A DNA stretch of 64,000 nucleotides. It comes from Deltaproteobacteria bacterium. GTDB taxonomy: Bacteria > Desulfobacterota > GWC2-55-46. The notes under the pieces are model-generated. The model saw only the letters and a program-made list of their open reading frames with translations, searched no databases and had not been told where the DNA came from. Shown piece after piece: positions 23,149-41,828 of the stretch. Every line of letters begins with the position of its first letter. The stretch's first letter is position 1. The DNA is taken from the NCBI GenBank assembly GCA_016234935.1, contig JACRNL010000007.1:62001-126000 (forward strand). Direction: 5' to 3'. The position numbers and the translations under genes were made by a program.

Positions 23149-23163
23149 TGGCATGAAACTTGC
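23149..23163 (+). promoter_or_regulatory. sigma-54 promoter of the DUF11 surface locus
   Basis: TGGCATGAAACTTGC keeps the invariant GG and GC exactly 10 bases apart and matches the consensus TGGCACG-N4-TTGC at all but one conserved position. The expected start of transcription near 23175 leaves a 37-base leader before the 23212 gene. The window also encodes a sigma-54 activator (38107). Confidence 0.8.
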
Positions 23164-23211
23164 TATATTAATAATGATGCGCTAATCATTTCTGAGAGGA
23201 TTATAGAATTT

Positions 23212-26200
23212 ATGAAAAGACAAAATAATATCCTCAGCCAAATCTCATTGAAGATATCGTGGTTAATCAGCCGCGCTATATATTTGCGTCCATACCGCGG
23301 GACTCCCGCTCTACCCTCCCCCGTCCCCCGCTTTAAATATGCGGGGGCAGGCAAGGGGGAGGAGAAAAAAGGTTCAGCAGCGCTTAGGCTGTTCGCCGTG
23401 GCCGTGCTGGCGGCGCTGGCGATGGCGCTTGGCACAGTCAATACGATTCATGCCCACAGCGTGGGGCAGGTGCAGACCACCAAATACTTCACTCCGGAAA
23501 CCGTGCAGATGCTGGTGGATAACGCCAACGCCGGAAACCCGGGACTGCACACGGGCGATACGGTCAGTTACATCATCCAGTTTTCACCCATCGCCAACGG
23601 CGCGACCACAGGCGTCGCAGGATATATCACGGATTACATCCCTTCCGGCGTTCAGGTAATCGGCGCGTCCATCGTGGCCAAAGACGGAAGAGGGAACTTC
23701 TATGATATCTCGCCTAACCTGCCGGGCGGCATTGACACGGGCTGGGGCAACAGGGGACAGAACACCTTCCTCGCCCCGTTCAACGCCGCAGGCTACGACG
23801 CCACAGGGCGCTGCGCAGCAGGCGGCTTCACCAACAACTGTAATGCCCGTATGACTGAACTCTACGCGGATACCGGCATCTTCTTTTCTACCGATTCGCG
23901 CACTTCTCAGTATCCAGCCATGCCCACGCGCATCACTCAGGGCACCAACGGCTACAATATCAACCCGACCGGAGCCGCCGCCCTTAATACACTGCTCAAT
24001 CAATTATCGGCCACCACGCATAACCTGTGGGATGCGGATCAGACCAACGGCTTCGGAAGTAACGCCGGTTCCGTCGGCGGACTGGTCGCGCCTAAATCGC
24101 TCCAGACCGCCCTCGCCACCGGGCGGGGCCCCACGCCTTACAATGCCGGTTCAGCCGTGGCCGGGCCGCAGACAGGCTATCAACTTGACAACACTGCACA
24201 GGTGGGGCCGTGGCAGCGCATATATTACCCCGGTTCCCGCATGGGCGACAACACCTTGGGGCCGGCTACGGCCACAGGTTCCTGCACCACTTGCGTTGGC
24301 GGCAATTCAACCAGCGTGGGCTGGAACCTCTCCTCAAGCAACCCTCTGCCTGCAGGCGCCAATGCCGTGCGCTGGGCAGTGGGTAAGCTTGTGGTGGGCT
24401 CTGTCAGTTATGTCAAGATAAGCCTCCGCATCACAGACATTCCGCCGTCAACCGGCATCGTCAATTCCTCAGAGGTGTTTGGCGGCGACGCGGGCGATGG
24501 CGACGGCGGACAGGACAATACCTGGCGCTACCATGTGCCGAGCGTGGCCGACAACAATTCAAATCTCTATGTGCTCAAAAGCGTGAAGTGCGTGTATGAC
24601 GCCCTGGGCAACTGCAACGCATCGTCCGGCGCGTATATCCCCGCAGGCGCCAAGATACGCTACCGCACAGTATATCTGAACTCCGGCAACGCCAATCAGG
24701 ACAACGTCGTACTCAGCGACACGCTGCCCTGTCAGACTGCGGCCAATCCGGTCAGCAGCATCACCGTTATAAGCGGTTCGATAAGCGCCATCGTAAACCC
24801 TGCGGCGCAGGCAGCAGGCGATTGCGCCACTAACCCCGACACGCGGCAGACCGTCAGCTTCAACAACGGCGTGGGGGTTACCCTGCTTCCGGCCGCCGCA
24901 GGCTCGATAGAATACGACGTGCAGACCAATGCCGCGCTCGGCAGCACCGTAACCAACACGGCCAAGCTGACCAGCACGCAGATCCCGTCCGGTGTGACCT
25001 CGAACGTCAACTCGTATGTGCAAACCGCTCCGAATCTGCTTATCACCAAGACGACCAGCACGCCGAATGTGGCGGCGGGAGGGACGGCTACATACACGAT
25101 AACCATAACCAACAGCGGCACCGCCGCCACCGCCGCCACCTTGATGGTATATGACATGCTCCCGAGCACGGGCGGTGTTGCGAATGCCTTAACGCGCTTC
25201 AGTTACCTCGGCACCACATCCATTACCGGCCTGACCTCCGTGGTTCCGACTACCGCAGTGCCGCCGACGCTTACCCCTTACAACACCGGGGGCGTATCCG
25301 CTAACCAGCAACAGGTGCTCTGGAACTTCGGCGCGCAGTCGCTCGCCGCAGGCGCGAGCGCCACGATCACCTTCAACGCCACGGTGGGCGCCAGCGTCCC
25401 GTCCTCGGCAACGCCTTATTACAATACCGCGGTCGTAACCTACAACACCACCCTTCGCGCGGATACCTCAAGCACGGCGGGGGTGACGGTAACCTCCCCG
25501 CTCTCCGTTACCAAGACGCTTGAATCTTACTATGACGCCGCTACCCTTGCCTGGGTGCCATACGGCAACAATATCCCGGCCAACGCCAAGGCGCGCTACA
25601 AGATTGATTACTCCAACACCGGCGGCGTTGCCATTAACAACGTGATTCTCACGGACACGCTGCCCTGTCAGACAGCGGCCAATCCCGTTAGTAATGTCAA
25701 TATCGTAAGCGGGCCGATATTAGCGCCTGCTCCGAACCCGCCGGTTGTCGCCGCAGGCGTTTGTCCCGCTACCCGGCAGACCTTCAGCTTCCCAACCTTG
25801 GCGACGCTGAACGCGGGGCAGACCGGACAAATCAAATTAGACGTTCAAACCAATGCCGCGGCCGGCAACACCGTGGTCAATACCGCGACACTCTCCGGAA
25901 CAGGGGCTACCGCGGTTACGAGCGATGCGCAGGCGTCCGTAACGACCGCGCCGCTTTTGGGGATAACCAAGACCGCATCTGTAACAGGAGTAGCGCAGGG
26001 CGGCACGCTTTCATATACCATAACCGTCACCAACACCGGCACGGCCAACGCCACAAGCATAATCCTCTATGACTGGCTGCCGAGCGGCGGGGCAGTTCTG
26101 AATCCCGCGACTCGCTTCAGTTATGCCGGCACCACATCCATTACCGGCATGACTGCGGTTGTGCCGACGGTCGTGATACCGCCGACACTTGCGCCATACA

Positions 26201-28128
26201 GCACGGATGTCAATGCCGCCAACATGCAGCAGATAGCGTGGAACTTCGGCGCGCAGACGCTCGCGCCGGGCGCGAGCTTTACAGTAGTCTTTGCGGCGTC
26301 GGTCGGCACAAGCGTGCCCAATTCAACGGCCTACTATAATAATTCGCGCGTTTATTACGGCACGGAGCAGGCCAATTCCGGCGCAGTAGGGGTCGTTGTG
26401 GGGGCGGATATTTCGACATCCAGCAAGACATGGACAGACCTGAACGGTGGCGACGCAAACCCGGGCGATGTAATAGAATATACGATTACGCTCAGGGAGA
26501 CCTCAGGCATCGCTACCGCCGGCGTTTCTGTGACGGACAACATCCCCGCGAACGTGAACACCTTCACGGTGATGAGCACGCCTGCGGGCTCGACCAACAG
26601 TTCCACAGGGACAGGAACCGGCACGAACGGCACGGGCTACCTGAACGTCACGGGCATATCTGTCCCGGCAAGCGGGTCGGTCACCATAGTATTTCGCGTG
26701 ACTGTCGCTGCGGCGCCTGCCGGCACGCAGATCAATAACTGCGGTAATATTACGAATCCCGGCGGCCCCGGGGCCGCGCCTTGCGCGGCCACGATCACGG
26801 TCTCCGCGTCAACTGTCCCCGGTTATGGAAATAAGCCGATGTATTTTTATGACGCCGCCTCTACCCCGGCGTATATACTCTCACGCACTGCGCCTGCCGC
26901 CGGAGCTACGGTTTCGATAGCCGCGACGACCGGTGTTCAGACATGGACAGAGAGCCCCGCGCTCGCTTCTTCCGTGACCATCAGCAACACGCTGAGCACA
27001 ACGGCGCCTGTTCAGCTCTATCTTTCCAGGGGCGCGACAGCAGGCACTTACAGCGTTAAGGTGGACCTGTACTGTTCAACGGCGCCGGCAACGCTTATTA
27101 CCCTGACTCAGGCACCCGCGCTTACCACCACGGTAACGCTATTCACATTCAACCTGCCGTTTACCGGGCCGGTTCCGTCTATTACCTGCGGCGCAGGCGG
27201 GTCGTGGGTTGTCAAAGTATCCAACCTCGGCACCGTTGCGCTGATTGTATCTCCGTATGTAAGCGCCACACAGATATCCAATGTCAACCTGCCGTCTCAG
27301 GACGTCATAAATGTGACAAGCGTTACGCCTTACAGCACGGTCTATCCGGGCGTAACGTCGCCCGCAACCTACGCCAGCGGGGCTACGGTCTATCTGCGGG
27401 CGGTCGTGAGCGATCCGTTTGGCAGCTACGACATCACCTCGGCGACGGTAACGATTAAAGATTCCAACAGTACGACCAGAGTAACCTCCGCCGCCATGAC
27501 ACAGGTGTTTGATTCCGGTCTTGCAACCAAGACCTATGAATACGCATACGTCATTCCGGCCAGCCCTGCCGGCGTATGGAACGCGACCGTAACGGCTAGG
27601 GAAGGAACGGAAAACACGGTCTCGGACACCGGTATCAGCTCATTCTTAGTCATGTCGGCGCCGAGCCTGACTATCGTCAAATCCGTGCTGACTTATTCCG
27701 ATCCAATAAACGGCACAGCAAGTCCAAAGGCAATACCGGGTTCTTTTATGCTCTATACGGTTATGGTGACCAATAGCGGCGCGGGCGCGGTTGACAGCAA
27801 TACGACGGTGATAACCGACCCGATTCCGGCAAACACCGAGCTTTTTGTCGGAGATATAAACGGGGCGGGCACGGGCCCTGTTTTGTTTACGGACGGCGCG
27901 GTGGCAAGCGGACTCAGCTACGGCTTTATAACCCTCGCCAGCGCGGCGGACAACGTTTCTTTTTCAAATAACGGCGGAGCGACATACGTCTATACGCCGG
28001 TTCCTGACGCAAATCTGGTTGATGTGAACGTCACCAATCTGAAAATTTCCCTGACCGGCATATTAAGCGGCGCAAGCGGAGGCAATAATCCGTCGTTCAA
28101 CGTCAAGTTCAGGGTGAGGGTGAAGTGA
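23212..28128 (+). CDS. giant DUF11-repeat secreted surface protein
   Basis: 1,638 aa. A basic extension of about 60 residues, partly made by an in-frame palindromic element, precedes a hydrophobic export segment (LFAVAVLAALAMALG), so the signal peptide is unusually long. An uncharacterised N-terminal domain (about 75-440) has paired Cys. From about 450 come DUF11 repeats: the pair LKSVKCVYDALGNC / LLITKTTSTPNV is duplicated as VTKTLESYYDAATL / LGITKTASVTGV, both copies carrying TLPCQTAANPVS and GTTSITG. Two more DUF11-like units follow at about 1,070 and 1,485. The protein ends FNVKFRVRVK with no sorting signal or barrel. DUF11 domains form beta-sandwich stalks on cell surfaces. It is driven by the sigma-54 promoter at 23149. 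Function probably adhesion or matrix; inferred. Confidence 0.82.
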   Translation: MKRQNNILSQISLKISWLISRAIYLRPYRGTPALPSPVPRFKYAGAGKGEEKKGSAALRLFAVAVLAALAMALGTVNTIHAHSVGQVQTTKYFTPETVQMLVDNANAGNPGLHTGDTVSYIIQFSPIANGATTGVAGYITDYIPSGVQVIGASIVAKDGRGNFYDISPNLPGGIDTGWGNRGQNTFLAPFNAAGYDATGRCAAGGFTNNCNARMTELYADTGIFFSTDSRTSQYPAMPTRITQGTNGYNINPTGAAALNTLLNQLSATTHNLWDADQTNGFGSNAGSVGGLVAPKSLQTALATGRGPTPYNAGSAVAGPQTGYQLDNTAQVGPWQRIYYPGSRMGDNTLGPATATGSCTTCVGGNSTSVGWNLSSSNPLPAGANAVRWAVGKLVVGSVSYVKISLRITDIPPSTGIVNSSEVFGGDAGDGDGGQDNTWRYHVPSVADNNSNLYVLKSVKCVYDALGNCNASSGAYIPAGAKIRYRTVYLNSGNANQDNVVLSDTLPCQTAANPVSSITVISGSISAIVNPAAQAAGDCATNPDTRQTVSFNNGVGVTLLPAAAGSIEYDVQTNAALGSTVTNTAKLTSTQIPSGVTSNVNSYVQTAPNLLITKTTSTPNVAAGGTATYTITITNSGTAATAATLMVYDMLPSTGGVANALTRFSYLGTTSITGLTSVVPTTAVPPTLTPYNTGGVSANQQQVLWNFGAQSLAAGASATITFNATVGASVPSSATPYYNTAVVTYNTTLRADTSSTAGVTVTSPLSVTKTLESYYDAATLAWVPYGNNIPANAKARYKIDYSNTGGVAINNVILTDTLPCQTAANPVSNVNIVSGPILAPAPNPPVVAAGVCPATRQTFSFPTLATLNAGQTGQIKLDVQTNAAAGNTVVNTATLSGTGATAVTSDAQASVTTAPLLGITKTASVTGVAQGGTLSYTITVTNTGTANATSIILYDWLPSGGAVLNPATRFSYAGTTSITGMTAVVPTVVIPPTLAPYSTDVNAANMQQIAWNFGAQTLAPGASFTVVFAASVGTSVPNSTAYYNNSRVYYGTEQANSGAVGVVVGADISTSSKTWTDLNGGDANPGDVIEYTITLRETSGIATAGVSVTDNIPANVNTFTVMSTPAGSTNSSTGTGTGTNGTGYLNVTGISVPASGSVTIVFRVTVAAAPAGTQINNCGNITNPGGPGAAPCAATITVSASTVPGYGNKPMYFYDAASTPAYILSRTAPAAGATVSIAATTGVQTWTESPALASSVTISNTLSTTAPVQLYLSRGATAGTYSVKVDLYCSTAPATLITLTQAPALTTTVTLFTFNLPFTGPVPSITCGAGGSWVVKVSNLGTVALIVSPYVSATQISNVNLPSQDVINVTSVTPYSTVYPGVTSPATYASGATVYLRAVVSDPFGSYDITSATVTIKDSNSTTRVTSAAMTQVFDSGLATKTYEYAYVIPASPAGVWNATVTAREGTENTVSDTGISSFLVMSAPSLTIVKSVLTYSDPINGTASPKAIPGSFMLYTVMVTNSGAGAVDSNTTVITDPIPANTELFVGDINGAGTGPVLFTDGAVASGLSYGFITLASAADNVSFSNNGGATYVYTPVPDANLVDVNVTNLKISLTGILSGASGGNNPSFNVKFRVRVK
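23311..23364. repeat. palindromic element inside the DUF11 giant's signal region
   Basis: CCCCCGCTTTAAATATGCGGGGG is nested between CTACCCTCCCCCG and a reversed GGGGGAGGAG, giving one long hairpin. It is translated as a Pro/Gly-rich stretch between the basic N-terminus and the hydrophobic export segment. Confidence 0.7.
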
Positions 28129-28190
28129 CGCGCCAGAGCGGTGAAAAACAGATAGAAATAAAAAATCAAATCGCAGGGGGGAATTTAAAC

Positions 28191-28262
28191 ATGGACGATC
28201 TTTTCTTTTTACAAAAAGGCGCAAATAGTAATATCTGCGGATTGGCGCGGGACGGTCCGTAG
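28191..28262 (+). CDS. possible 23-codon leader peptide
   Basis: A short frame with a good ribosome site (AGGGGGG, nine bases before ATG) lies in the 224-base gap before the 28353 gene and ends Arg-Asp-Gly-Pro-stop. A second mini-frame before the 30091 gene also ends Gly-Pro-TAG, with similar bases around the stop. Gly-Pro-stop is known to slow termination. It could be a regulatory leader or chance. Confidence 0.3.
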   Translation: MDDLFFLQKGANSNICGLARDGP

Positions 28263-28352
28263 CCGGCCACGCACAGCTCACACTGCGCCAAAGTGAACAG
28301 GCGGCGACCTGTAAATTAAGAACAACGAAGCTGTCTATAAGGAGGTGGAAAG

Positions 28353-29339
28353 ATGAGAAGGCTGATTTTAACAGCAACAATTGCGATCCTCGCGTGTTTG
28401 TCGGTGAGCTCTGTTTATGCCGCCGGCACGCCTGCGGGAACCGTAATATCCAACGCGGCGAAGGCGACGTATACATCCGGCGGCCCCACCGTAACGACAA
28501 ACAGCAATACTGTCAATGTCATAGTCGCTGAAGTGATAAACGTGACGGTTACATGGCAGGATGCCGCAAACGTGACGGTTTCTCCGGGGCAGACGAACGC
28601 GGTGCTGATATTCAAGGTTACGAATACCGGCAACGGGACTGAGCCGTTTCTGCTCACCGGCAATGCAACGGTGGCGGGCGATCAATTCGACCCCACGCTT
28701 GCCAGTATCTACCTTGATACAAACGGCAACGGCGCCTACGATTCCGGCACCGACACGTTGTATGTGCCGAACGTGAACAATCCGAACCTTGCCGCTGACG
28801 GGTTTGTCAACGTGTTCGTTCTGGCGAACATACCGTCGTCGGGCGTACTGGACGGAAACCTGGGTTTCGCGACGCTGACGGCGGCGTCCAAGACCGGCAC
28901 AGGCGCGGCAGGGACCATATTCGCGCTTCAGGGCGACGGAGGGGTGGACGCGATAATCGGCGCCAGCGGCGGCAGTGCGATCGCTACCGGCAAGTATGTG
29001 ATATCGAGCGTGCTGGTCAGCATTAACAAGGCCGCAACGGTGAGCGACGTCTACGGAGGAACGAGAGCGATAACCGGCTCGACCATCCGCTACAGCATGA
29101 CCGTAACCGCGACAGGGTCCGGCACGGCCGTGGGCGTGGTGATTACAGACGTTATACCCGCATATACCGCTTACACGGCGGGCACGCTCAAGCTGAACGC
29201 CGTAGCCTTGACTGACAACAAAGACGGAGATGCCGGCGATGTGGGAGGAACGACTGCGGGAACGGTTACGGTAAGCCTGGGGAATCTGACCAGTGCGTCC
29301 GCGGTTCAGACAATAGTCTTTAACGTGACGATCAACTAA
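28353..29339 (+). CDS. secreted DUF11-family protein
   Basis: 328 aa with a clear signal peptide (LILTATIAILACLSVSSVYA) and an excellent ribosome site (AAGGAGGTGG). The mature protein opens with GTVISNAAKATYTSGG, a motif repeated at the N-terminus of the 31624 giant (GTVISNTAKASYPG) and, more loosely, of the 30091 product. It is followed by a beta-sandwich (about 50-140, with YLDTNGNGAYDSGTD, a possible Ca-binding loop) and a DUF11 unit near the C-terminus (about 215-328: VTATGSGTAVGVVITDVIPA). It is the second gene of the DUF11 locus. It has no membrane anchor, so it probably attaches to partner DUF11 proteins outside the cell; this is inferred from the locus. Confidence 0.8.
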   Translation: MRRLILTATIAILACLSVSSVYAAGTPAGTVISNAAKATYTSGGPTVTTNSNTVNVIVAEVINVTVTWQDAANVTVSPGQTNAVLIFKVTNTGNGTEPFLLTGNATVAGDQFDPTLASIYLDTNGNGAYDSGTDTLYVPNVNNPNLAADGFVNVFVLANIPSSGVLDGNLGFATLTAASKTGTGAAGTIFALQGDGGVDAIIGASGGSAIATGKYVISSVLVSINKAATVSDVYGGTRAITGSTIRYSMTVTATGSGTAVGVVITDVIPAYTAYTAGTLKLNAVALTDNKDGDAGDVGGTTAGTVTVSLGNLTSASAVQTIVFNVTIN

Positions 29340-29356
29340 ACAAAGGAGGAGACTCA

Positions 29357-29851
29357 ATGATGAAAAAAGCGCTGTTTATCCTGGCGATGCTAATTTTTAC
29401 GGCAACCCACGCAGTGGCGGCGGATAAAAGCCCGTTAGAGCTTGTATCCGTCAACGAAGTGGATATCACCGTAAAGAACAGCAAGGGCGTGGACGAGGTT
29501 CAGAGGGTGGATGCCGCGAAGGCAAAGGTTGTGCCGGGCGACACGGTTATCTTTACCACCCGTTATTCGTATGCAGGCGGCAAGCCTGCCACTGACGTGG
29601 TCATCACGAATCCGATGCCGGAGCATATGATCTATACGGACGGCACCGCCGAAGGCAAGGGCACGCGGATAGAATTCTCCGCTGACAAGGGCGCCAGCTA
29701 CGCGCCAGCCGGCAAAGTGAAGATCAAGGACGCCAAAGGCAAGGAAAGGGTTGCCGCGGCCGCTGATTACACCCATATAAGGTGGGTCTTCAAGGGGGCT
29801 TTGGAAAAAGGCGCAAAGGGCGAAGTGTTTTTCAGGGCAAAGGTCAAGTAG
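29357..29851 (+). CDS. small single-domain DUF11-like secreted protein
   Basis: 164 aa. A signal peptide (FILAMLIFTATHAVA) is followed by one DUF11-like beta-sandwich: VPGDTVIFTTRYSYAGGKPATDVVITNPMPEHM, then IEFSADKGASYAP and a strand pair ending GEVFFRAKVK. The ribosome site AAAGGAGGAG precedes the ATG. It lies only 17 bases after the 28353 gene and must be co-transcribed. It contains none of the long repeats of its neighbours, so it may act as a minor or terminal subunit of the same surface structure. The role is inferred from context only. Confidence 0.78.
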   Translation: MMKKALFILAMLIFTATHAVAADKSPLELVSVNEVDITVKNSKGVDEVQRVDAAKAKVVPGDTVIFTTRYSYAGGKPATDVVITNPMPEHMIYTDGTAEGKGTRIEFSADKGASYAPAGKVKIKDAKGKERVAAAADYTHIRWVFKGALEKGAKGEVFFRAKVK

Positions 29852-29869
29852 GCGGCGGAAGTGGTTTAT

Positions 29870-29915
29870 TGTCATTCCCGAGGTTTTAATCGGGAATCTG
29901 GATTCGGGGATGACA
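29870..29915. repeat. dispersed inverted repeat (TGTCATTCCCGA family), copy 2
   Basis: The first 31 bases are identical to those of the copy at 11499 and the closing TCGGGGATGACA is shared. It lies between two DUF11 genes and can fold into a hairpin that could weaken read-through. Confidence 0.75.
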
Positions 29916-29970
29916 GAAAAAAAGAATAGATTCCAATCGAATTAATAACAATATAAATACGGAGGTTTTT

Positions 29971-29994
29971 ATGGAGCGTGGGTCGGGGCCGTAG
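29971..29994 (+). CDS. possible 7-codon leader peptide (MERGSGP)
   Basis: GGAGGT stands four bases before ATG; the frame reads MERGSGP and stops at TAG. It lies 97 bases before the 30091 gene. Such strong start signals on a non-gene are unusual, but the frame is very short. Confidence 0.25.
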   Translation: MERGSGP

Positions 29995-30090
29995 TTAACA
30001 TATGTAAGGGTCATGTTCTGCCTGGCAACGAGAGGCATTGGCGAGTTAACGAGTAAAAAAACAAACAAAACAACCAAAAGGAGAAAAAAC

Positions 30091-31308
30091 GTGAATAAGA
30101 AATTAGCGCTTAAAATCGCAGCGCCGCTGCTCGGTATAGCATTTGCCCTGGGAGCGCCGCAGGGGGCGCAGGCGGCGCCGGTACCAACAGCGTCACCGAA
30201 CAACTTTACCCAGGCATGTACGCAAATCAGCAACACGGCCACCGTTAATTTCACGGTTGGCGGCGTAGGACAGACCCCCGGAGCCTCCAATGCGGCGTCC
30301 TTTCAGGTGGGCAACAGGGCCAATGTCCTCGTGGTAAAGCAAAACGCAGCTCCGGTGTCCGTTGTTCCGGGTTCGGCCGGGAATATACTGACATTCAAGG
30401 TAATCAATGCCGGCAACTATCGTCAGAGGTATAACCTCGCAAGCCTGGTAAAGGCGATTGGCACGGCAAATCCTTTTGCCGGACTCCCTGCAAACAGCAC
30501 GTTTACCGCGACGGAGCAGGTCCCTGCCATATATGTTGACGGCGCTCCCGGCGCTGTTACCGCCAACATTGACCCGGACTTCGAGCAGACGGTTACAATC
30601 CTGGCGGATATAGGGGCGGCACAGGTTGACGGTGATCTTTCCGTCCATGCCCTTACGGCCACGACCACGTATACCACTGGCGCGGCAGTAACTCAGGGAG
30701 CAGGCCAGTCCATTGTCGGCGGGGCATTGGCGTGCACGGGTAACGTTGGAGACGTCGTGTTTGCCGATACCGTCGCTGGCCCGGATGACGCCGTGAGAGA
30801 CGCAGTCGGTTCCGACAGAGACGCATACAAGGTCTGCTCATCGCTGCTGAGCTTTTCCAAGACCGCAACGACCATCTGGGACCCGATTAACTATACCACC
30901 ATACAGAAAACAATCCCCGGCGCCCTGGTGAGATACGTGGTTACCGTGTCCAATGCCGGCGCCGCCTGCAGGTCAGCCGTGCTTACGACCATCACGGACG
31001 GCCTGAGTGGGAATCTGACGATGGACGCCAACCTGAAGGTTGCGGCCGCTGCCGGCCCACTGACGGCCCTGGCCGATGAATCAGCTGCCGGCAAGGGATT
31101 CAAGGTTCTGGTGACGGGTTCCGCGCGTGCCTTAAACGGCGTGGCCCAGTACTTCACCACCGCTAACGACGCGGACGGCGTAGAACTCCTGGCGCCAAAC
31201 ATCACGGCAACGCTGGCGACGGTGCTGCCTGTGGAAGGCGCCTATCTCGCCGGTGAAATTAAGCCCGGTGAAACCGTAACGCTTACGTTCAACGTTGTGA
31301 TCAATTAA
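30091..31308 (+). CDS. secreted DUF11-family protein
   Basis: 405 aa from GTG 30091. That start is chosen because AAAAGGAG lies seven bases upstream and it yields a standard signal peptide (KKLALKIAAPLLGIAFALGAPQGAQA); the longer frame from 30013 would bury it. The mature N-terminus (QISNTATVNFTVGG) resembles the shared opening of the 28353 and 31624 proteins. A first beta-sandwich (about 65-165) contains VVPGSAGNILTFKVINAGNYRQRY, and the C-terminal DUF11 unit (about 255-405) contains GALVRYVVTVSNAGAACRSA and ends PGETVTLTFNVVIN. It is the fourth gene of the DUF11 locus. No anchor or catalytic motif seen. Confidence 0.8.
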   Translation: MNKKLALKIAAPLLGIAFALGAPQGAQAAPVPTASPNNFTQACTQISNTATVNFTVGGVGQTPGASNAASFQVGNRANVLVVKQNAAPVSVVPGSAGNILTFKVINAGNYRQRYNLASLVKAIGTANPFAGLPANSTFTATEQVPAIYVDGAPGAVTANIDPDFEQTVTILADIGAAQVDGDLSVHALTATTTYTTGAAVTQGAGQSIVGGALACTGNVGDVVFADTVAGPDDAVRDAVGSDRDAYKVCSSLLSFSKTATTIWDPINYTTIQKTIPGALVRYVVTVSNAGAACRSAVLTTITDGLSGNLTMDANLKVAAAAGPLTALADESAAGKGFKVLVTGSARALNGVAQYFTTANDADGVELLAPNITATLATVLPVEGAYLAGEIKPGETVTLTFNVVIN

Positions 31309-31340
31309 GGCGCAGCCATCCGGAAACGGCCGCAAAGACG

Positions 31341-31384
31341 CGGGGGGTGAACCCCCTGAGGGGGCTCAGCCCCTTCAAGGGGAG
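31341..31384. repeat. palindromic element, GGGGTTGAACCCC module (intergenic copy)
   Basis: CGGGGGGTGAACCCCCTGAGGGGG followed by GCTCAGCCCC and TTCAAGGGG: three overlapping palindromes of the same family as the in-gene copies. Confidence 0.75.
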
Positions 31385-31519
31385 AAGTTCCCCGGCGTCC
31401 TTGCGGCTTAAGGATGGGATAAAGCAGGAGATGTTGTGCTGTGCGCTCATGCCGGCGTTAAAAAAAACAGCATGAGCGCATACCAGAGCATCTGCAAACG
31501 TAGCGCGAGGCTTCTACCG

Positions 31520-31621
31520 AGCTGTTTTTGCCGCATCCTTGCCTGATTGCAACAGGCGAGACTAAAGTCTCGCACTACGTAAACGGCAAGGCAAGACATA
31601 CTAAGGACGCACAAAACAGCT
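31520..31621. repeat. nested palindromic (MITE-like) element
   Basis: The outer ends AGCTGTTTT and AAAACAGCT are exact reverse complements. Further in, CATCCTT / AAGGACG and CCTTGCC / GGCAAGG also pair, and the centre is GCGAGACTAAAGTCTCGC. The central hairpin plus CACTAC resembles the element at 63163. The ATG of the next gene follows two bases after the right end. Confidence 0.65.
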
Positions 31622-31623
31622 GA

Positions 31624-34600
31624 ATGATAAGAGCGAATAAAAATAGGACTTCCGTGTTGACATGGGCGCTCGGCGCGTTCTTGCCCGTGTTATACCTGTT
31701 TATCGCCGTCCCCGGCGCATGGGGCGCCGCGCCCAGCGGGACTGTCATCAGCAACACCGCGAAAGCGTCTTATCCGGGGATGCCTCCCGTCGATTCCAAT
31801 ATGGTGGACGTGAAAATCCTGCCGCCTCCGACCAAGGCGGTAATTGAATTCCTGAGATACGCGCCGTCGTATCCAGATGCCCAGCCGGTCAACGTCGCCA
31901 CAACCGGATGCAGCCAGAGCGGCTCAACATCCGGGCCATTTACCGGCATGCCTTCTCCTCAGCCTTTGTTGGCTTCGTCGCCGCTGAACCTTGCCGTCGC
32001 CGTCTCTCTTGTAAAGACGACGAGGTATCATGCAAATGATACTGCCTTCGTGCGTCTTACGGACGGAGACCAGAACCTTGACGCAACTGCAATAGACACG
32101 GTGACGGTGACTTTGACGGTCCCCGGCTCTAATGAAAGCGAGACGCTTCGCCTGCAGGAGACCGGCCTTGACACGGGCGTATTCGCAGGCTACATCACGA
32201 TCGGCTCCGCGCAGGCGGCTGCGAATAACTGCGTTTTAAATTATCTTGCCGATGGACAAAAGATTCTCGCGTCATATGCCGACCCGGTGAACGGCGACAC
32301 CGCCGAGGATGTTTCCCTCGTTGACCCTTACGGATTGATGTTTGACAGCGCCACCGGAGCGCCCGTGAACGGGGCGATTATTACCCTCATAGACAATGCC
32401 ACGGGACTGCCGGCGGTTGTTGCCGGCGATGACGGCGTCAGCGCCTATCCTTCCACGGTTACTACCGGCGGGGCCGCGACTGACGGAAGCGGCAAGGTTT
32501 ATAACTTCCCCGCGGGCGAGTACAGGTTCCCCTTTATCGCGCCGGGCAACTACCGTTTTGACATTATACCGGCCCTCGGATACAGGCTGCCGTCCACAGC
32601 GGCTTTCGCGGACTTGCAGAGCCTTCCCGGCGCGCCGTTCGTACTTGACAATCCCGGCTCCATAGGCGGTGTTTTTAACGTTCCCCTCGGCGTCGCCGTG
32701 AAGATAGACATTCCGACAGACCCGGTGCGCGTGATGCTTTACCTTACAAAGACCGCGTCAAAGTCGACGGCGGCCGTCGGTGATTTCCTTCAGTACAGGG
32801 TCGGCGTGGAGAACACCTCAACCCAATTCGACGTCAGCAATGCCGTTATCAGCGACGAGATGCCGCTCGGCTTCCGTTACCGTAAAGGCTCGGCAACGCT
32901 CGGCGGCGTCCGCGCCCCTGACCCTTTGATTTCAAGCGACGGACGCACCCTTTCATTTGCCGCCGGCAGCCTTGCCATGAACGGAGGAAAGGCTGAGATA
33001 ACGTATGTCGCGGCGATAGCGGCAGGGGCAAAGACGGGCAAGGCCGTGAATACGGCCTACGCGGTCGGCACGACCCTTAACAACGGAACCGTCAATTCCA
33101 ACACGGCGCGGGCGACGGTAGAGGTAAAGGACGATCTCTTCGCCGAAAAGAGCTTCATAGCGGGCCGCGTCGCCAAGGGTTGCGATAAGGAGAAAGAGGC
33201 CGTTATTGAGGGCGAGATGGAAGGCATCCGCATATACCTTGAGGACGGCACTTATACCCTGACCGATAAAAAGGGCATGTATCACTTTGCCGGGGTAAAG
33301 CCCGGATCTCATGTGGTTCAGATGGATAAAGACACTATCCCCGGCGAATATGAGGTCGAACAGTGTGAAGATCACAGCCGGTTCGCGGGCAGCGATTTTT
33401 CTCAGTTTGTCGACCTCCAGGGCGGCGCCTTGTGGCGGGCAGATTTTTATTTGGCCGAAAAGCCAAAGGCCCCGCTGCCTGAGCCGATTGAGATAAAAGG
33501 GCAGGCAGGGATTGAACTCAGCAGCGCTTTGGAAAGCGGCGGCGCGGAAAAAGACGGAAAAAATACCGTTGCCGCCTTATCCGTGGATTACAGCGTATTC
33601 CTTCAGGCCGGCAATGTGCCGCTGAAAAACCTCAGGGTTACGGTTTTGCTGCCTGACGGGGTTGATTATGTCAAAGGCAGCAGCACGCTCGGAGACGCTG
33701 CCTTGCTGGACCCGCTGGCGCTGGAAGGCTCCCTGACATACCGGCTTTTTGACGTTCCCGCCGACTGGCAGAATTTGCTGAAGTTTGCCGCCGCCGTCCC
33801 GATTGAAGCCGCGGGCAATGATCTGGCCGCCAAAGCGATGCTGACCTTTGATACCTCCGCGTCGAAGAACCTGAGGACGCCGCTTGCGGAGAACATCCTG
33901 CAGGGCTTTAACCGCAAAAAGCCGAATGGGAACATTGAAGAGTTTACCCTGTATCCGCAGTTTGATGTGATGAGCGACGTCCTCAGCGCGGATGACAAGG
34001 AAATGATGGGGCAGATCATACAGGAGCTTAAAAAGAGGTCCATTAAGCAGATTGTCATTGAAGGCCATACGGACTCCAACAGGGTAAGCAGGAAAACTCT
34101 GCATATATTCCCGGATAATTACGCTTTGTCAAGGGGCAGGGCGCAGAGCGTCGCCAACTTTGTCAAAGAGGCGTTAAACCTTAAACCCGAGCAGTTGGTC
34201 ATTGCCGGCTATGGGCCGGATAAGCCTGTCGCGGCCAACAAGACAAGCGAAGGCCGCGCCCTTAACCGCCGCGTGGAGATGAAGATAGCGGCGAACACCG
34301 AAGCGGAGGAGCGCGCGTTTAAAAACGACAAAGACAGGAGCGGTCTGAAGACCGTCGAGGTAACGGACGTCTGGCGGCCAAAGGCCCCGGAAACCGCGGC
34401 GGAAATAGCGGCGAAAGAGGCCAGGGCGGCGCGGGAAAAGAAAATAATGCCCCTGTTTGACGTTGCATGGACTGACGCGGCCAGGCCTGGTTTTGAGTGG
34501 CTATGGCCTTTTGACGGCTTCTATCCGCCTGTCCCAAGCCTTAAGGTCGCCATAAAACATGACCCCGCGAAAAAGCTCCAACTCTTCATGAACGGCGTGG

Positions 34601-37551
34601 AGGTCGACCCTGTGAGCTTTGACAATACCGTAAAAAGCCATGATGATAAAATCGCCGTGAGCATATGGCGCGGCATTGGTCTTGTAGACGGGGATAATTT
34701 GTTTGAAGCGGCGGAGTACGATAACGGCGTTGAGAGCGGACGGATCAAGCGCGTCGTCCATTATTCAAGGCCTCCGGTGAAGGCGGAATTGGTCATGGAG
34801 CTCTCAAGGCTCGTGGCGGACGGCAAGAACCCGCCGGTAGCGGCCATTCGCCTGACCGATAAGGACGGCCATCCGGCCAGAGAGGGGATTATCGGCGAAT
34901 ATGCGGTAGATCTGCCTTTCATGGCGATGAAGAAGATTGAAGATATGCAGGACGACCCGCTCAGCGCCTCCAAGAACGATAAGCTCAGATATGAGGTTGG
35001 CGGCAACGGCATGGCATACATTAAATTGCGGCCTACCACCCAAACCGGCGAGGCGGCGATAAGGCTTAACCTGATGATCGGCGAGCAGGAGGTAAAGGCG
35101 TGGATGCAGCCGGATGATCGCGACTGGATACTCGTGGGCATGGCCGAGGGGACGGCTGGATATAACGCCGTGAAAGGGAATATGGAGAGCCTCGGCGATT
35201 CAGACGGCAAGATCGGGCTCTACGAAGAGGGAAGAACCGCCTTTTTCGCCAAAGGAAAGATAAAGGGCAAATGGCTGCTCACCGCCGCGTATGACAGCGA
35301 TAAAAGCTGGAAGAGCGGCGACAACACCAGCCTGCACCAGACCATTGCGCCTGATAAATATTATACTATTTACGGAGACGGGAGCTATGAGCAGCGCGAG
35401 GCCGCCAGCGCAAGGCCTTTATATGTAAAAATAGAGCGCGACCGTTTTTATGCCCTGTTCGGAGACTATAACACCGGTCTCACCGTTACGAACCTTTCGA
35501 GATACAGCCGGAATTTCAACGGATTGAAGTCGGAACTGAAAGGGGATAAATACGATTACAACGTCTTTGTGAGCGACAACAACCAGCAGTTCGTAAAGGA
35601 CGAAATCCGCGGAGACGGGACCTCCGGCCTCTACAGGCTCTCAAGAAAGAGCATTGTGCTTAATTCGGAATCAATAGTCATTGAGACCAGGGACAGGTTC
35701 CGGAGCGAGGTGATAGTGTCATCCAAGGCCATGAGCCGCTTCATGGATTACAGCATTGACTACGATGACGGCGCCATCCACTTCAAGTCGCCTGTCGGCA
35801 GCCGCGACGAGAACTTCAACCCTAACTATATCGTCGTCAATTACGAAACATATGACGCGGCCGCCGTTTCGTATAATTACGGCGGAAGGGGCGCGGCGCG
35901 CGTCCTTGATAAAAAAGTGGAGATAGGCGGCACATACGTCAAGGAGGACAGCGGACTACGGACGGGCAGCCTCGCCGGAGTTGACGCTACCGTCGATCTC
36001 GGCCCCAAAACAAAGCTCAAGGCCGAAACCGCGGCGACGAATTACGATAACGACGCCGCTCACAGGGAGGGAACCGGTTATCTCGCGGAATTGTCTCACA
36101 AGGCGGACAAAATGGACGGCAAGGCGTATGTCCGCGAGCAGGGGCAGGGCTTTGGCCTTGGACAGGAAAGGAGCGGCGAGGCGGGCACCCGTAAATACGG
36201 CGTTGACGCCGCCTATCGCCCGATCGCGAATGTGAGCCTGACGGGCGGCGCTTACCGCCAGTATAAGCTCTACACCCTTGAGCAGAAGGACATGGCGGAG
36301 ATGAGGGCGAGGTATACGGCAAAAGGCTACGAACTCTATACAGGTTTGAGGCACGCGGAGGACACCGACGTCAACGGCGGCGTCTTCACTTCAGAGCAGG
36401 TCATCGCCGGGGCGAAGTACAATTTGCTGCGCGACCGTCTTGCCCTCAGCGCCCAGCGCGAGCAGTCCGTCCTCGACAAGAACGCAAGCGTTGAATATCC
36501 GTCGCGCACGTCGCTCGGCGCCGATTATAAGCTCAATGACTCGGCCACGCTCATTGTCAGGCAGGAGTTCGTTCAGGGGGCGGACGGACGCGCATCGCTT
36601 ACGCAGGCCGGGCTGAACGCGTCGCCGTGGACCGGCGGCCAGTTGAATTCCACCGTAGGTCAGCAGTTGAATGAGAACGGGGCCAGGGTCTTTTCCAGCA
36701 TGGGCCTCAAGCAGGCATGGAAAATAAACGCAAAATGGAGCGTGGACGGGGGCGTAGATAACAGCGCCACGATCAAGCGTCCGAACCACGCGCTGATAAT
36801 GTCCGCGGCCGATTCGGACTTCACGGCCGTATCGCTGGGGGCCGCGTACAGATTGAAAAAATGGGCATGGACAGGCCGGGCCGAGGCGCGCCATTCGGCG
36901 GCTGACGACAAGACGGGCTTATTTACCGGCATGAACGGAGAGCTCCGTGACGGCATCGGGGTGTCCGCGGGCCTGCAGGGGTTCAACACTGATTATTCAT
37001 CAGGCGACAGGCGCAGGAGCGGCGATCTGCGCCTTGGCGCGGCCTACCGTCCGGCGAAAACACGCTGGATCATCCTGGACCGCCTGGACTTTCTGATAGA
37101 TGAGCAGAAAAACAGCGCATTCCATTTCAGCAACAGGCGCATCGTCAACAACCTCAACGTAAACTTCAAGATATACTCAGACACTCAGCTTTCGTTGCAA
37201 TACGGCGCAAAGTATGTGAAGGAGCGGATAGATAGTTTTGATTACAGCGGCTACACGGACCTTTTAGGCGGCGAACTCCGGCATGATGTGACCAGGAGAT
37301 TGGACGTCGGGCTGAGGAGCAGCGTTATGCACTCATGGAAGGATGGACAGTGCAAACTCAGCACCGGGCCCTCCATCGGGTATAACGTTGTGAAAAATGT
37401 CTGGTTAAGCGTCGGCTATAATGTCACAGGTTTCAGGGACAGGGACTTCTCAAAGGCGGACTTTACGGCCGCAGGGCCGTATATCAAGTTCAGGGTCAAG
37501 TTTGACAAGGAGTCCGCGCGCGACGCCATAAAGTGGTTTACGGGCCAGTAG
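31624..37551 (+). CDS. giant outer-membrane DUF11/OmpA/beta-barrel protein
   Basis: 1,975 aa. A signal peptide (VLYLFIAVPGAWG) is followed by the shared motif GTVISNTAKASY, a beta domain (about 70-205), a transthyretin/SdrD-B-like domain (about 235-330), and a DUF11 unit (370-480: SKSTAAVGDFLQYRVGVENTS). A second SdrD-B-like domain (505-575: YTLTDKKGMYHFAGVKPGSH) and a second DUF11-like unit (655-740) come next. An OmpA-C peptidoglycan-binding domain lies at about 775-890 (IVIEGHTDSNRVS, LNRRVEMKI). The C-terminal 750 residues alternate amphipathic strands typical of a large barrel (YYTIYGDGSYEQRE, YNVFVSDNNQQFV, and a terminal FRVKF strand). It probably anchors the DUF11 surface proteins to the outer membrane and cell wall. 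The start has only a distant AAGGA. Confidence 0.82.
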   Translation: MIRANKNRTSVLTWALGAFLPVLYLFIAVPGAWGAAPSGTVISNTAKASYPGMPPVDSNMVDVKILPPPTKAVIEFLRYAPSYPDAQPVNVATTGCSQSGSTSGPFTGMPSPQPLLASSPLNLAVAVSLVKTTRYHANDTAFVRLTDGDQNLDATAIDTVTVTLTVPGSNESETLRLQETGLDTGVFAGYITIGSAQAAANNCVLNYLADGQKILASYADPVNGDTAEDVSLVDPYGLMFDSATGAPVNGAIITLIDNATGLPAVVAGDDGVSAYPSTVTTGGAATDGSGKVYNFPAGEYRFPFIAPGNYRFDIIPALGYRLPSTAAFADLQSLPGAPFVLDNPGSIGGVFNVPLGVAVKIDIPTDPVRVMLYLTKTASKSTAAVGDFLQYRVGVENTSTQFDVSNAVISDEMPLGFRYRKGSATLGGVRAPDPLISSDGRTLSFAAGSLAMNGGKAEITYVAAIAAGAKTGKAVNTAYAVGTTLNNGTVNSNTARATVEVKDDLFAEKSFIAGRVAKGCDKEKEAVIEGEMEGIRIYLEDGTYTLTDKKGMYHFAGVKPGSHVVQMDKDTIPGEYEVEQCEDHSRFAGSDFSQFVDLQGGALWRADFYLAEKPKAPLPEPIEIKGQAGIELSSALESGGAEKDGKNTVAALSVDYSVFLQAGNVPLKNLRVTVLLPDGVDYVKGSSTLGDAALLDPLALEGSLTYRLFDVPADWQNLLKFAAAVPIEAAGNDLAAKAMLTFDTSASKNLRTPLAENILQGFNRKKPNGNIEEFTLYPQFDVMSDVLSADDKEMMGQIIQELKKRSIKQIVIEGHTDSNRVSRKTLHIFPDNYALSRGRAQSVANFVKEALNLKPEQLVIAGYGPDKPVAANKTSEGRALNRRVEMKIAANTEAEERAFKNDKDRSGLKTVEVTDVWRPKAPETAAEIAAKEARAAREKKIMPLFDVAWTDAARPGFEWLWPFDGFYPPVPSLKVAIKHDPAKKLQLFMNGVEVDPVSFDNTVKSHDDKIAVSIWRGIGLVDGDNLFEAAEYDNGVESGRIKRVVHYSRPPVKAELVMELSRLVADGKNPPVAAIRLTDKDGHPAREGIIGEYAVDLPFMAMKKIEDMQDDPLSASKNDKLRYEVGGNGMAYIKLRPTTQTGEAAIRLNLMIGEQEVKAWMQPDDRDWILVGMAEGTAGYNAVKGNMESLGDSDGKIGLYEEGRTAFFAKGKIKGKWLLTAAYDSDKSWKSGDNTSLHQTIAPDKYYTIYGDGSYEQREAASARPLYVKIERDRFYALFGDYNTGLTVTNLSRYSRNFNGLKSELKGDKYDYNVFVSDNNQQFVKDEIRGDGTSGLYRLSRKSIVLNSESIVIETRDRFRSEVIVSSKAMSRFMDYSIDYDDGAIHFKSPVGSRDENFNPNYIVVNYETYDAAAVSYNYGGRGAARVLDKKVEIGGTYVKEDSGLRTGSLAGVDATVDLGPKTKLKAETAATNYDNDAAHREGTGYLAELSHKADKMDGKAYVREQGQGFGLGQERSGEAGTRKYGVDAAYRPIANVSLTGGAYRQYKLYTLEQKDMAEMRARYTAKGYELYTGLRHAEDTDVNGGVFTSEQVIAGAKYNLLRDRLALSAQREQSVLDKNASVEYPSRTSLGADYKLNDSATLIVRQEFVQGADGRASLTQAGLNASPWTGGQLNSTVGQQLNENGARVFSSMGLKQAWKINAKWSVDGGVDNSATIKRPNHALIMSAADSDFTAVSLGAAYRLKKWAWTGRAEARHSAADDKTGLFTGMNGELRDGIGVSAGLQGFNTDYSSGDRRRSGDLRLGAAYRPAKTRWIILDRLDFLIDEQKNSAFHFSNRRIVNNLNVNFKIYSDTQLSLQYGAKYVKERIDSFDYSGYTDLLGGELRHDVTRRLDVGLRSSVMHSWKDGQCKLSTGPSIGYNVVKNVWLSVGYNVTGFRDRDFSKADFTAAGPYIKFRVKFDKESARDAIKWFTGQ

Positions 37552-37812: not shown

Positions 37813-38040
37813 AAAAGAAATTGACTACTAACGCGATTAACCGTATAATTATGAAACGTGTGTCAAATTTTTGCCTTCTTTTCCATGGGCAGTTGCCGGT
37901 TTCTGCCTTTTGCCGCGCGGCAAGATTCGTTGATTAGCTTTTTTCACGTGAAAATTCAGCACATTGCGTTGAAATTCAAGTAAATGCCGGTTTTTGCCGA
38001 TAATTGATTATTGTAAGGCAAGCTCGTTCCCCAGTTTAAG

Positions 38041-38070
38041 ACCCCCGCTTAAGGCACACGAGGGCAGGCT
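38041..38070. repeat. palindromic element, CCCCGCTTAA module (degenerate copy)
   Basis: CCCCCGCTTAAGGCACACGAGGGCAGGCTG shares its first ten bases and its ending (GGGCAGGCTG) with the copy at 61-120. Confidence 0.6.
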
Positions 38071-38106: not shown

Positions 38107-39510
38107 ATGAATAGTGTGCTCATCGTGGAAGGCGAGAAGGCTGCAAGGCTGGCCATTTGCAGGATATTGCAGAAGGAAGGATTCAATGTAATCGAGGCAT
38201 CCAACGGCAAGGAGGCCGTTGATTATTTTAAGAAAAATGCGCCTCTGTCCGTTATCCTCGACTTGAAGATGCCTGTAATGGGCGGCATTGATACCATAGA
38301 CAGGTTAAAGAGCATTGATGCCTCGGTGCCTATTATCGTGGTGACCGGCCTTAACGATGCCTTTAGCGTGATGGAAACCATGCGGCTCGGGGCGTATGAT
38401 TTCATTACCAAGCCAGTGGAGCCGGCCAAGCTCGTATCTTCGGTAAAGAGAGGCGTTGAAAAGTTAAGAATGGAAAGGGAGGCCGCCAGGCTGACCGCAT
38501 CTGGAGACGAGTCCATTGAGAGCATCTTCGGCAGAAGCCCGGCGATAAGGAAGGCCATAGAGCGGCTTAAGCAGGTCGCCGCGACAGATTTTTCAGTCAT
38601 TATAGAGGGTGAGACCGGCACCGGCAAGACGTTTTTGGCGAAGGCCATGCACAATATGAGCAAAAGGGCGGGCAAGGCGTTCGTGAAGATAGATATGGGC
38701 GCTATCCCTCTGACCCTTATGGAAAGCGAGCTGTTCGGGTATGAAAAAGGGGCTTTTACAGGCGCGAGCTTTACCCGAAAGGGCTTCTTTGAATCGGCGG
38801 ACGGAGGCTCGATTTTCATTGACGAACTTGAAAATGCCCCGCCGATAGTCCAGAGCAAGCTTCTCGGCGTTGTCGAGGACAAGGCCGTATACCGCATAGG
38901 AAGCAGAAGGCCGATTGTCATGGATATAAGGATAATAGCCGCCACAAGCGCCGACATACAGGAAAGCATCACGGAAGAGAGGTTAAGGGAGGATCTGTTC
39001 TACCGCATGGGCGAGTTCGTGATAAAGCTGCCGCCGCTGCGCGAAAGGACCGAAGACATAATGTTTTTCGCCGGCAAGTTCCTTGAAGAGTCCGCCGCGG
39101 AGCTTGGCCAGCCCGTAAAAGAGCTTGACGCCAAGACGATAGACTCTTTGACGGGCTACCACTGGCCGGGAAACATCAGGGAGCTTAAAAACGTCATCAG
39201 GAGGGCGGCCCTTCTTTCCGGCGGCTCCGCGATAAAGGCGGAACACTTGGAGCTTTCCTTCGGGAAAGACGAAAAGGAAAAAGACGGGAAGGGGTTAAGC
39301 CCCTTCAAGGGGCTTCACCTGGTGTCGCTCAGGGACAGCGTAAGCGCGGTCGAAAAGGAAATGATTATCAAGGCCCTTGAGTCTACAAAAAACAACAAGG
39401 CAAAGGCCGCTTCTATTTTGAGGATAGATACAAAGACGCTGCGTTCAAAGATTCAGGAATACGGTATTGAATCTTATTCGGAGTGTGATGTTTCAGCCGA
39501 TGCCCAATGA
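38107..39510 (+). CDS. sigma-54-dependent response regulator (NtrC family)
   Basis: 467 aa. The receiver domain (1-120) has phospho-acceptor Asp52 (VILDLKMPVMGG) and Lys102. The usual acidic pair after strand one is changed to VEGEK. The AAA+ domain (about 138-370) has Walker A GETGTGKT (168-175), the sigma-54 contact loop GAFTGA (215-220) and Walker B SIFIDE. A Fis-type HTH (about 420-456: AKAASILRIDTKTLRSK) ends the protein. Upon phosphorylation it would remodel sigma-54 RNA polymerase. The sigma-54 promoter at 23149 is a candidate target. An in-frame palindromic element adds GLSPFKGL to the linker before the HTH. It opens the chemosensory cluster, but a 450-base gap follows. Confidence 0.92.
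   Translation: MNSVLIVEGEKAARLAICRILQKEGFNVIEASNGKEAVDYFKKNAPLSVILDLKMPVMGGIDTIDRLKSIDASVPIIVVTGLNDAFSVMETMRLGAYDFITKPVEPAKLVSSVKRGVEKLRMEREAARLTASGDESIESIFGRSPAIRKAIERLKQVAATDFSVIIEGETGTGKTFLAKAMHNMSKRAGKAFVKIDMGAIPLTLMESELFGYEKGAFTGASFTRKGFFESADGGSIFIDELENAPPIVQSKLLGVVEDKAVYRIGSRRPIVMDIRIIAATSADIQESITEERLREDLFYRMGEFVIKLPPLRERTEDIMFFAGKFLEESAAELGQPVKELDAKTIDSLTGYHWPGNIRELKNVIRRAALLSGGSAIKAEHLELSFGKDEKEKDGKGLSPFKGLHLVSLRDSVSAVEKEMIIKALESTKNNKAKAASILRIDTKTLRSKIQEYGIESYSECDVSADAQ
39291..39315. repeat. palindromic element inside the response regulator
   Basis: GGGGTTAAGCCCC followed by TTCAAGGGGCTT, translated in frame as GLSPFKGL in the flexible linker between AAA+ and HTH domains. Confidence 0.75.
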
Positions 39511-39961
39511 ACGCGGCCGCCCCTGCTTTTAAAAGCCATGTTCCCGTATTCCGAGCCTCTCTGCAAGATAGCCCGCGTTTCAGCCGCCGTCCATCCGGAA
39601 AAATAAAATCTCAGACAGCCTTGTAGGGTGGGCACAGCCCACCTTTTACAGGAGCGTGTAGCTATTTTGGTGGGCGGTGCCCACCCTACGGAACTCTTTA
39701 TATTCGTCAGGTTGGCTGTTTGCCCATCTCTATTCCGCGCAGTGCATGCTCGCCTTTAAGATCAATCCCTGCTTTTTCTGCCCCGTCCGCGTCCGAATCG
39801 CGCCGGATTTTACAACCTTTTGAAATACCAATCAAAAAGCTCCTTAAGCGGGTCATTACAAAGGACTACTAAGAAATCAACCCTTTGACTGGGCAAAGTT
39901 AAACCCTTTGCCCATTGTGGTTTTTTCTGTTTTCAGCGATAACTGTATTGCGGCAAGGGCA
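39511..39961. other. intergenic region within the chemosensory cluster
   Basis: No gene recognised. It contains the inverted repeat at 39623 and, at 39891-39913, GGGCAAAG-N7-CTTTGCCC, which looks like a degenerate member of the GGGGTTGAACCCC family. Confidence 0.6.
39623..39689. repeat. inverted-repeat element with perfect 13-bp ends
   Basis: GTAGGGTGGGCAC and GTGCCCACCCTAC are exact reverse complements. The interior has a second nested pair (AGCCCACC / GGTGGGC). This resembles GTAGGGTGGGCA-type repeats found in many bacterial genomes. Confidence 0.75.
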
Positions 39962-41323: not shown

Positions 41324-41376
41324 CCCCGCTTTAACCTGCCCTCGAATGTTTCTATCGGGGGGCACGCGAGGGCAGA
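41324..41376. repeat. palindromic element, CCCCGCTTTAA module (intergenic copy)
   Basis: CCCCGCTTTAACCTGCCCTCG followed by GGGGGGCACGCGAGGGCAG, starting at the stop codon of the MCP-like gene. CCTGCCCTCG and CGAGGGCAG pair. Confidence 0.7.
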
Positions 41377-41418
41377 TACCGGGAAAAACAGCGTTAGACA
41401 ATAGTAAAGGAGGACGAT

Positions 41419-41802
41419 ATGGCAAAGATGGTAATGGTGGTTGATGATTCGGCGTCGATAAGGCAGGTGGTGAACTTTACTCTCAGGAAGGGCGGCTACG
41501 ACGTCATAGAGGCGTCGGACGGAGTGGATGCAATGGACAAGCTCAAGGGGTTGAACCCGCTCAGCGGGCAGAAGGTAAACCTTATAATCTGCGACGTCAA
41601 CATGCCTAACATGGACGGGATAACCTTTGTAAAGAACCTGAAGACAACGCCTAATTACAGGTTCACCCCCGTGATGATGTTCACGACCGAGTCTCAGGAT
41701 TCCAAGATACAGGAAGGAAAGGCCGCTGGCGCAAAGGCGTGGTTTGTCAAGCCTTTTAAGCCGGAACAGATGCTCGATGCGGTTTCCAAGCTCATTATGT
41801 AA
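41419..41802 (+). CDS. cheY: CheY single-domain response regulator
   Basis: 127 aa receiver domain: acidic pair Asp9/Asp10 (VVDDSAS), phospho-acceptor Asp59 (IICDVNMPNMDG), Thr89/Thr90 (MFTTES) and Lys111 (WFVKPF). The ribosome site AAAGGAGG precedes the ATG. It carries CheA phosphate to the motor or another output. The loop before strand three contains KLKGLNPLSGQK, coded by a palindromic element (41547-41570) and a few residues longer than usual in CheY at that point. It is followed 26 bases later by the STAS gene. Confidence 0.95.
   Translation: MAKMVMVVDDSASIRQVVNFTLRKGGYDVIEASDGVDAMDKLKGLNPLSGQKVNLIICDVNMPNMDGITFVKNLKTTPNYRFTPVMMFTTESQDSKIQEGKAAGAKAWFVKPFKPEQMLDAVSKLIM
41547..41570. repeat. 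palindromic element inside cheY
   Basis: GGGGTTGAACCCG followed by CTCAGCGGGCAG, the GGGGTTGAACCCC module with compensating changes in the second palindrome. Translated as GLNPLSG in a surface loop. Confidence 0.7.
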
Positions 41803-41828
41803 GCCGTTAATATCCGGAAGGTGTTTCT

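Follow-up and report, generated by a model that had tools for sequence, protein, structure and literature searches.

In the chaperone-usher pili (FimA-H / PapA-K), an open Ig-like subunit is completed by the N-terminal extension of its neighbor, the tip subunit is acceptor-only, and a large outer membrane barrel carries an early plug insertion. Donor-strand complementation is also employed by archaeal threads (Saci_0406; PMC9715654) and TasA fibers (PMC9674648), which are built head-to-tail without the chaperone-usher pathway, and DUF11 repeats have been described as stalk modules in fibrillar adhesins (PMC9210967). The locus analyzed here consists of five co-directional open reading frames (ORFs) on the plus strand, named P1 to P5 in their order, at positions 23212-37551 of a 64-kb stretch of contig JACRNL010000007.1 from an uncultured Deltaproteobacteria bacterium. 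This stretch is hereafter called the window, and all coordinates below refer to it. The locus probably encodes an outer membrane-anchored surface fiber, in which split DUF11 domains would be completed from one subunit to the next and P5 would hold the chain.

By analogy, the principle would be the known donor-strand complementation, with parts that differ from those of chaperone-usher pili, archaeal threads and TasA. The pilus features named above have putative counterparts in this locus, as has the order of tip, shaft and base, which is predicted here. Unlike in the pili, two strands instead of one are missing from the open domains, and the predicted barrel of P5 has about 36-38 strands rather than 24 and comes together with OmpA and DUF11 domains. 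Archaeal threads and TasA differ from the locus in having one main subunit and neither a barrel nor an OmpA anchor, and the text of the archaeal thread paper (PMC9715654) names no DUF domain. The DUF11-stalked fibrillar adhesins are, as described, single polypeptides, whereas in this locus one DUF11 domain is spread over separate polypeptides.

P1 (23212-28128) is a 1638-aa DUF11-repeat protein with a variable N-terminal part and an RrgB-type isopeptide-forming domain, which most P1 relatives also have. It is followed by P2 (28353-29339; 328 aa), P3 (29357-29851; 164 aa), P4 (30091-31308; about 405 aa) and P5 (31624-37551; 1975 aa). The ORF of P4 was called from 30013, and its likely start is the GTG at 30091 behind a GGAG (405 aa), in agreement with the starts of P4 relatives. 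All five carry hydrophobic leader peptides, as judged by eye from the translations; that of P1 is lengthened beyond the usual by a palindromic repeat (23310-23352) within it. In Pfam, the DUF11 domains of P1 and P5 are above the cut-off, those of P2 (16.9 bits) and P3 (22.8 bits) are below it, and P4 gave no match, while the NCBIfam TIGR01451 cut-off is passed by P1, P2, P3 and P5. With a model built from the family itself, the C-terminal DUF11 domain is clear in P2 and P3 and weak in P4 (E 0.006). A preliminary description, made from the sequence alone, had seen five co-directional exported DUF11 proteins of 164 to 1,975 aa, which is confirmed, for P4 only through the in-family model. A scan of the genome for DUF11 gave no matches beyond the locus proteins.

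The central evidence is the way in which the DUF11 domain is split. We built a 129-position DUF11 model from the internal domains of this family only, i.e. with both chain ends excluded. In 44 module proteins the last DUF11 domain ends at most 4 aa from the C-terminus, and in 38 of these it ends exactly at model position 95. Of 111 internal domains, on the other hand, 87 reach position 118 or further and only three stop at positions 90-97 (Fisher p 1e-23 for end positions of C-terminal vs internal domains). The part absent from the C-terminal domains is the last two strands (positions ~95-128), a hairpin with the consensus AGAPAGTLINTATVTSD...NSNTATATVKVK. This missing hairpin stands alone directly behind the leader peptide in P2 (AAGTPAGTVISNAAKATY...), P4 (TQISNTATVNF...) and P5 (APSGTVISNTAKASY...). 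Such N-terminal partial matches begin at model positions 92-97, just after the leader, and were found nowhere else.

The truncated C-terminal domains, which we call acceptors, lie at 27661-28125 in P1 (ending FNVKFRVRVK), 29058-29336 in P2 (truncated at model position 95), 29513-29848 in P3, where it is the only DUF11 domain (model positions 8-94), and 30913-31305 in P4 (ending TLTFNVVIN; a weak match to positions 14-94). The N-terminal hairpins, or donors, are found at 28419-28526 in mature P2 (positions 95-128), 30187-30309 in P4 (last-strand model, E 5e-4) and 31726-31815 in mature P5 (APSGTVISNTAKASY..SN; last-strand model, E 4e-6). P1 and P3 are consequently acceptor only, P2 and P4 are both, and P5 is donor only. 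Since P1, P3 and P5 are unable to complete themselves, complementation, if it occurs, must be at least partly between proteins. An incomplete C-terminal Ig-like domain together with an N-terminal complementing segment, the general mark of donor-strand fibers, is thereby present at the sequence level.

The last-strand model at an E-value of 0.5 identified N-terminal donors in 15 of 23 P2, 4 of 11 P4 and 9 of 20 P5 proteins, and in none of 22 P3 proteins, 191 neighboring ORFs and 88 shuffled sequences. When the acceptors of the window were artificially joined to its donors, the score rose by 6-23 bits and one continuous domain extended to position 125-128; for P1 joined to the N-termini of P2, P4 and P5, the gain was 6-18 bits. 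The P5 donor added 18 to 23 bits and, whichever of the four acceptors it was joined to, outscored every one of 200 shuffled donors. The P4 donor was above the shuffle median, although not always above the shuffle maximum. With Pfam DUF11, joining P3 to the P5 hairpin raised the score from 23.4 to 29.2 bits, i.e. over the cut-off.

The five-gene set is conserved and not a chance cluster, since the full order recurs in a relative of another genus and the P2-P5 core in many families. Of 59 near genomes, only a few have a full-length relative of P5, and a scan of genome contigs gave a single relative (L026). The order P1-P2-P3-P4-P5 is complete in the other genus (L028). In L027, P2-P3-P4-P5 is found with P1 on a separate contig (L092), and L091 holds P1-P2-P3 and part of P4, P5 being on a different contig, at its edge. 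The genes thus stay together across relatives, a point on which the preliminary description had made its case depend, and in one genome (G018) only P1 is set apart, on a different contig. Within P1 relatives, the C-terminal ~600 aa are conserved in L028, and conservation is near full length in L091 and L092. The P2/P3/P4/P5-type order recurs in many further families of the phylum. The barrel was found in 28 of 395 phylum genomes and full-length P3 in 15 of 395, all 15 of which also have the barrel (p 7e-20). In nearly every complete neighborhood, the giant barrel gene is preceded by a small P3 gene with P2-like and P4-like genes next to it. Among the barrel genomes without full-length P3, some neighborhoods are ended by contig ends (e.g. 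G100, G178 and G423), and most others have weak barrel matches and a different architecture. The latter is seen in L088, L089 and L090, where barrel relatives accompany giant DUF11 proteins, which reach 3567 aa or are fused in one chain of 3160 aa, with neither P3 nor truncated C-terminal domains, which makes it a second architecture of the barrel family. Similar sets occur on plasmids of Novosphingobium (Alphaproteobacteria), Kovacikia and Synechococcus (Cyanobacteria) and Thermus, with P5 divided into two genes on the latter three, while the Acinetobacter version of the set is looser. P3 relatives also share a conserved SxDxGxxF/Y motif (alignment A9) that resembles the sialidase Asp-box, and the matches of P3 to solved structures are chiefly to that motif, which we take to be local.

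P5 combines its donor hairpin with a complete internal DUF11 domain (32737-33129; model positions 2-129), an OmpA-type peptidoglycan-binding domain (33961-34269; residues 780-882, Pfam E 1.3e-14) and a C-terminal barrel (35101-37548). The OmpA domain implies that P5 would be attached to the peptidoglycan. AlphaFold, run on P5 residues 1160-1975 with 24 homologs, gave a barrel with pLDDT 78 and pTM 0.68, in which about seven strands are followed by a plug-like beta insertion (35584-35853; model residues 162-251) and then by about 31 strands; on a longer piece (780-1975) with seven sequences, pLDDT was only 43. The OmpA domain and predicted barrel that had been noticed in the last protein thus both reappear, and its proposed role as anchor agrees with the split-domain code, which would place the donor-only P5 at the base. 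When the barrel was searched by sequence, no solved structure matched it. Re-alignment of the model to solved structures with VIA-align placed FimD ushers at the top (Z 16.8, 16.3, 16.2 and 15.1), porins at 14.5 or less, and the type 9 translocon SprA (6h3i) below both, at Z 11.9 over 480 residues. Neither Usher (PF00577) nor SprA was found by Pfam in P5 or in the 24 barrel homologs, and the PapD-type chaperone family matches none of the five genes. The only PapD_N and Usher matches in the genome are in a separate, true chaperone-usher locus (G000:C10:180789-183548), and P5 as a member of the Usher family was dropped. In the model, the barrel appears usher-like in layout and SprA-like in size, and we assign it to neither family.

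The gene order, the co-occurrence of the genes, the phased split and the barrel model were all computed here; from them we infer complementation as such, fiber formation, export through P5, polarity and adhesion. In the proposed mechanism, Sec would take the subunits across the inner membrane, after which the N-terminal hairpin of a partner would fill the open C-terminal DUF11 domain of the next subunit. The simplest order suggested by the chain ends runs from P5 over P2/P4 to P1 or P3, with P5 as the base, P2 and P4 as links or shaft, and P1 or P3 as the end. P5 would hold the chain at two points, binding peptidoglycan with its OmpA domain and sitting in the outer membrane with its C-terminal barrel, whose pore may serve as the exit. 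P1, being large, variable and equipped with an isopeptide-type domain, could be an adhesive tip, and P3, which is just one constant domain, could cap the fiber or form a short piece at its end. That the five genes make one multi-subunit surface structure, as the preliminary description had it, is well supported by their conserved co-localization and by the code of donors and acceptors.

Several observations weigh against such a fiber. P2 and P4 carry both halves and could close on themselves, and no chaperone was found encoded in the locus. The OmpA domain lies between the donor and the barrel of P5, so that the donor end may be periplasmic. The likeness to ushers is not decisive, as Z rises to 14.5 even for unrelated porins and TM-scores from Foldseek stay below 0.35. 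Taken singly, the donors match weakly, with E-values of 4e-6 to 1e-3 in the window; many relatives of P4 and P5 show no donor match, and the model stops short of the end of the long-looped last domain of P1. Moreover, the Pfam score of P2 drops when it is joined to its own hairpin, and because the DUF11 model was built from this same family, the Pfam support was counted only as modest independent support.

The main role of the barrel could instead be export, as a channel of the type 9 kind that reads the C-terminal DUF11 ending FxVxIN/K as an export signal, so that the subunits would be cargo rather than a linked fiber. The P5 barrel is close in size to the 36 strands of SprA, likewise a single-chain barrel, which displays proteins with Ig-like C-terminal domains, and the ending is present in 54 of 70 module proteins vs 3 of 191 others. 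Cargo of the type 9 secretion system (T9SS) bears Ig-like C-terminal signals. We nevertheless hold such a channel to be unlikely: it leaves the two strands at the N-termini of P2, P4 and P5 unexplained, the structural match to SprA is moderate and ranks under those of ushers and many porins, and SprA has no link to an OmpA domain. In addition, T9SS genes are phylum-restricted, and no other T9SS part (PorV, GldKLMN) was seen in this locus or the other neighborhoods examined, no genome search having been made.

Slightly less likely still is that domain shuffling produced the split as a side effect, or that P2 and P4 are self-closing by circular permutation, in which case the products would be independent exported stalk proteins sharing an operon. 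This would suit the known use of DUF11 as a stalk domain (PMC9210967) and the presence of both halves in P2 and P4. Acceptors without a donor in P1 and P3, a donor without an acceptor in P5, a break that falls on one and the same residue in 38 of 44 proteins from several phyla, and the strict co-occurrence of P3 with the barrel speak against it. We regard as very improbable a pair for cell-cell recognition like the myxobacterial TraA/TraB, with P1 as the variable receptor and P5 as its OmpA-bearing partner. TraB does bear an OmpA-like domain, and its partner, encoded in the same operon, is a large surface receptor (PMC3325183), an arrangement recalling that of P1 and P5, and the NCBIfam TraB model matches P5 through the OmpA domain. 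That match is, however, limited to the OmpA region, which is all the two have in common, and reaches 58 bits against a TraB cut-off of 700; the searches made found no MYXO-CTERM or PA14 features, and the composition differs, P2, P3 and P4 being left unaccounted for. Two further candidates were rejected, namely type 11 secretion, for which the apparent mentions of DUF11 in the paper were of DUF1194, and F-ENA spore fibers, where DUF11 occurs only as extra domains of one anchor.

The gene set is not described in the open PMC papers searched, none of which links DUF11 to donor-strand assembly either; the sole paper there with both does not join them. More tentatively than the fiber as such, and with the balance slightly against it, the locus may represent an undescribed cross-phylum fiber system, where a two-strand hairpin completes the split DUF11 domain of the next subunit without a dedicated chaperone, through or onto an outer membrane barrel that would rank among the largest made of a single chain and would be tied to the cell wall by OmpA.

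A near-consensus sigma-54 promoter had been noticed ahead of the five genes, and the site at 23149-23164 on the plus strand (TGGCATGAAACTTGCT; TGGCAT-N5-TTGCT), 63 bp before the P1 start codon, does indeed score highest of all sigma-54-like sites in the window, where 0.1 such sites are expected at its score. The 2.15 Mb genome has five TGGCAYRN4TTGCW sites, this one included, and also encodes rpoN. The further claim that the whole set is under sigma-54 control held only in part. In G003 a similar site lies ahead of P1 (score 0.96), and in G334 one lies ahead of the first gene (0.90), a score of 0.90 being reached by 0.55% of random 500-base stretches, and none was found in the upstream regions of G010 and G018. 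The intergenic gaps of 225, ~240 and 316 bp in the window are wider than in relatives, and one contains an interspersed repeat, so that a single transcript of P1-P5 is no more than possible. Control by sigma-54 is therefore plausible from the sites seen, yet no constant feature among close relatives. Just downstream of P5, an NtrC-type response regulator (38107-39510, plus strand; receiver, AAA+ and HTH_8 by Pfam) is a possible sigma-54 activator.

The repeat in the P3-P4 gap, which it widens, is the second copy (29870-29900) of a 31-base element, TGTCATTCCCGAGGTTTTAATCGGGAATCTG, that is identical at 11499-11529. The palindromic repeat in the P1 leader, on the plus strand and in frame, belongs to a genome-wide family with the core CCCGCTTNARNNNTGCG, which occurs in exact form 96 times in the genome, against 0 times for the reversed control. 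Copies in the window are at 47-89, 15280-15309, 23310-23352, 38027-38069, 42600-42629, 42663-42693 and 44492-44534, and the repeat is in frame within coding sequence also twice in the CheA gene (42217-44484). In-frame palindromic elements occur in Rickettsia, of which the repeat here is reminiscent. The CheA gene is part of a chemotaxis cluster (39908-49615; two MCPs, CheY, CheA, CheW, CheR, CheD and a CheB-like protein) that follows the NtrC-type regulator downstream of P5. On the other side of the locus, a FecR/Ig-like protein (3497-6661) and a 1600-aa ORF without family match (6672-11474) are adjacent and in different frames, the ORF having the same kind of repeats as the FecR/Ig-like protein, as if one huge gene had been broken by a frameshift, real or from assembly, near 6600-6670. 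Upstream of these are a TPR and SlipAM/DUF2860-like barrel gene and a CHASE2-cyclase.

The break at position 95 and the N-terminal GTxIxNxAxxxY hairpin are simple marks by which acceptors and donors may be read in any genome. The hairpins are short peptides that can be used in direct binding tests, and P5 offers a very large barrel for structural work. If the proposed fiber is real, it would be a donor-strand-type system with subunits and an anchor outside all known pilus families tested here, spread over several phyla including Thermus and the Cyanobacteria. For DUF11, which is very common and has no known function, this would mean a definite role, that of an assembly joint that can be split between proteins.

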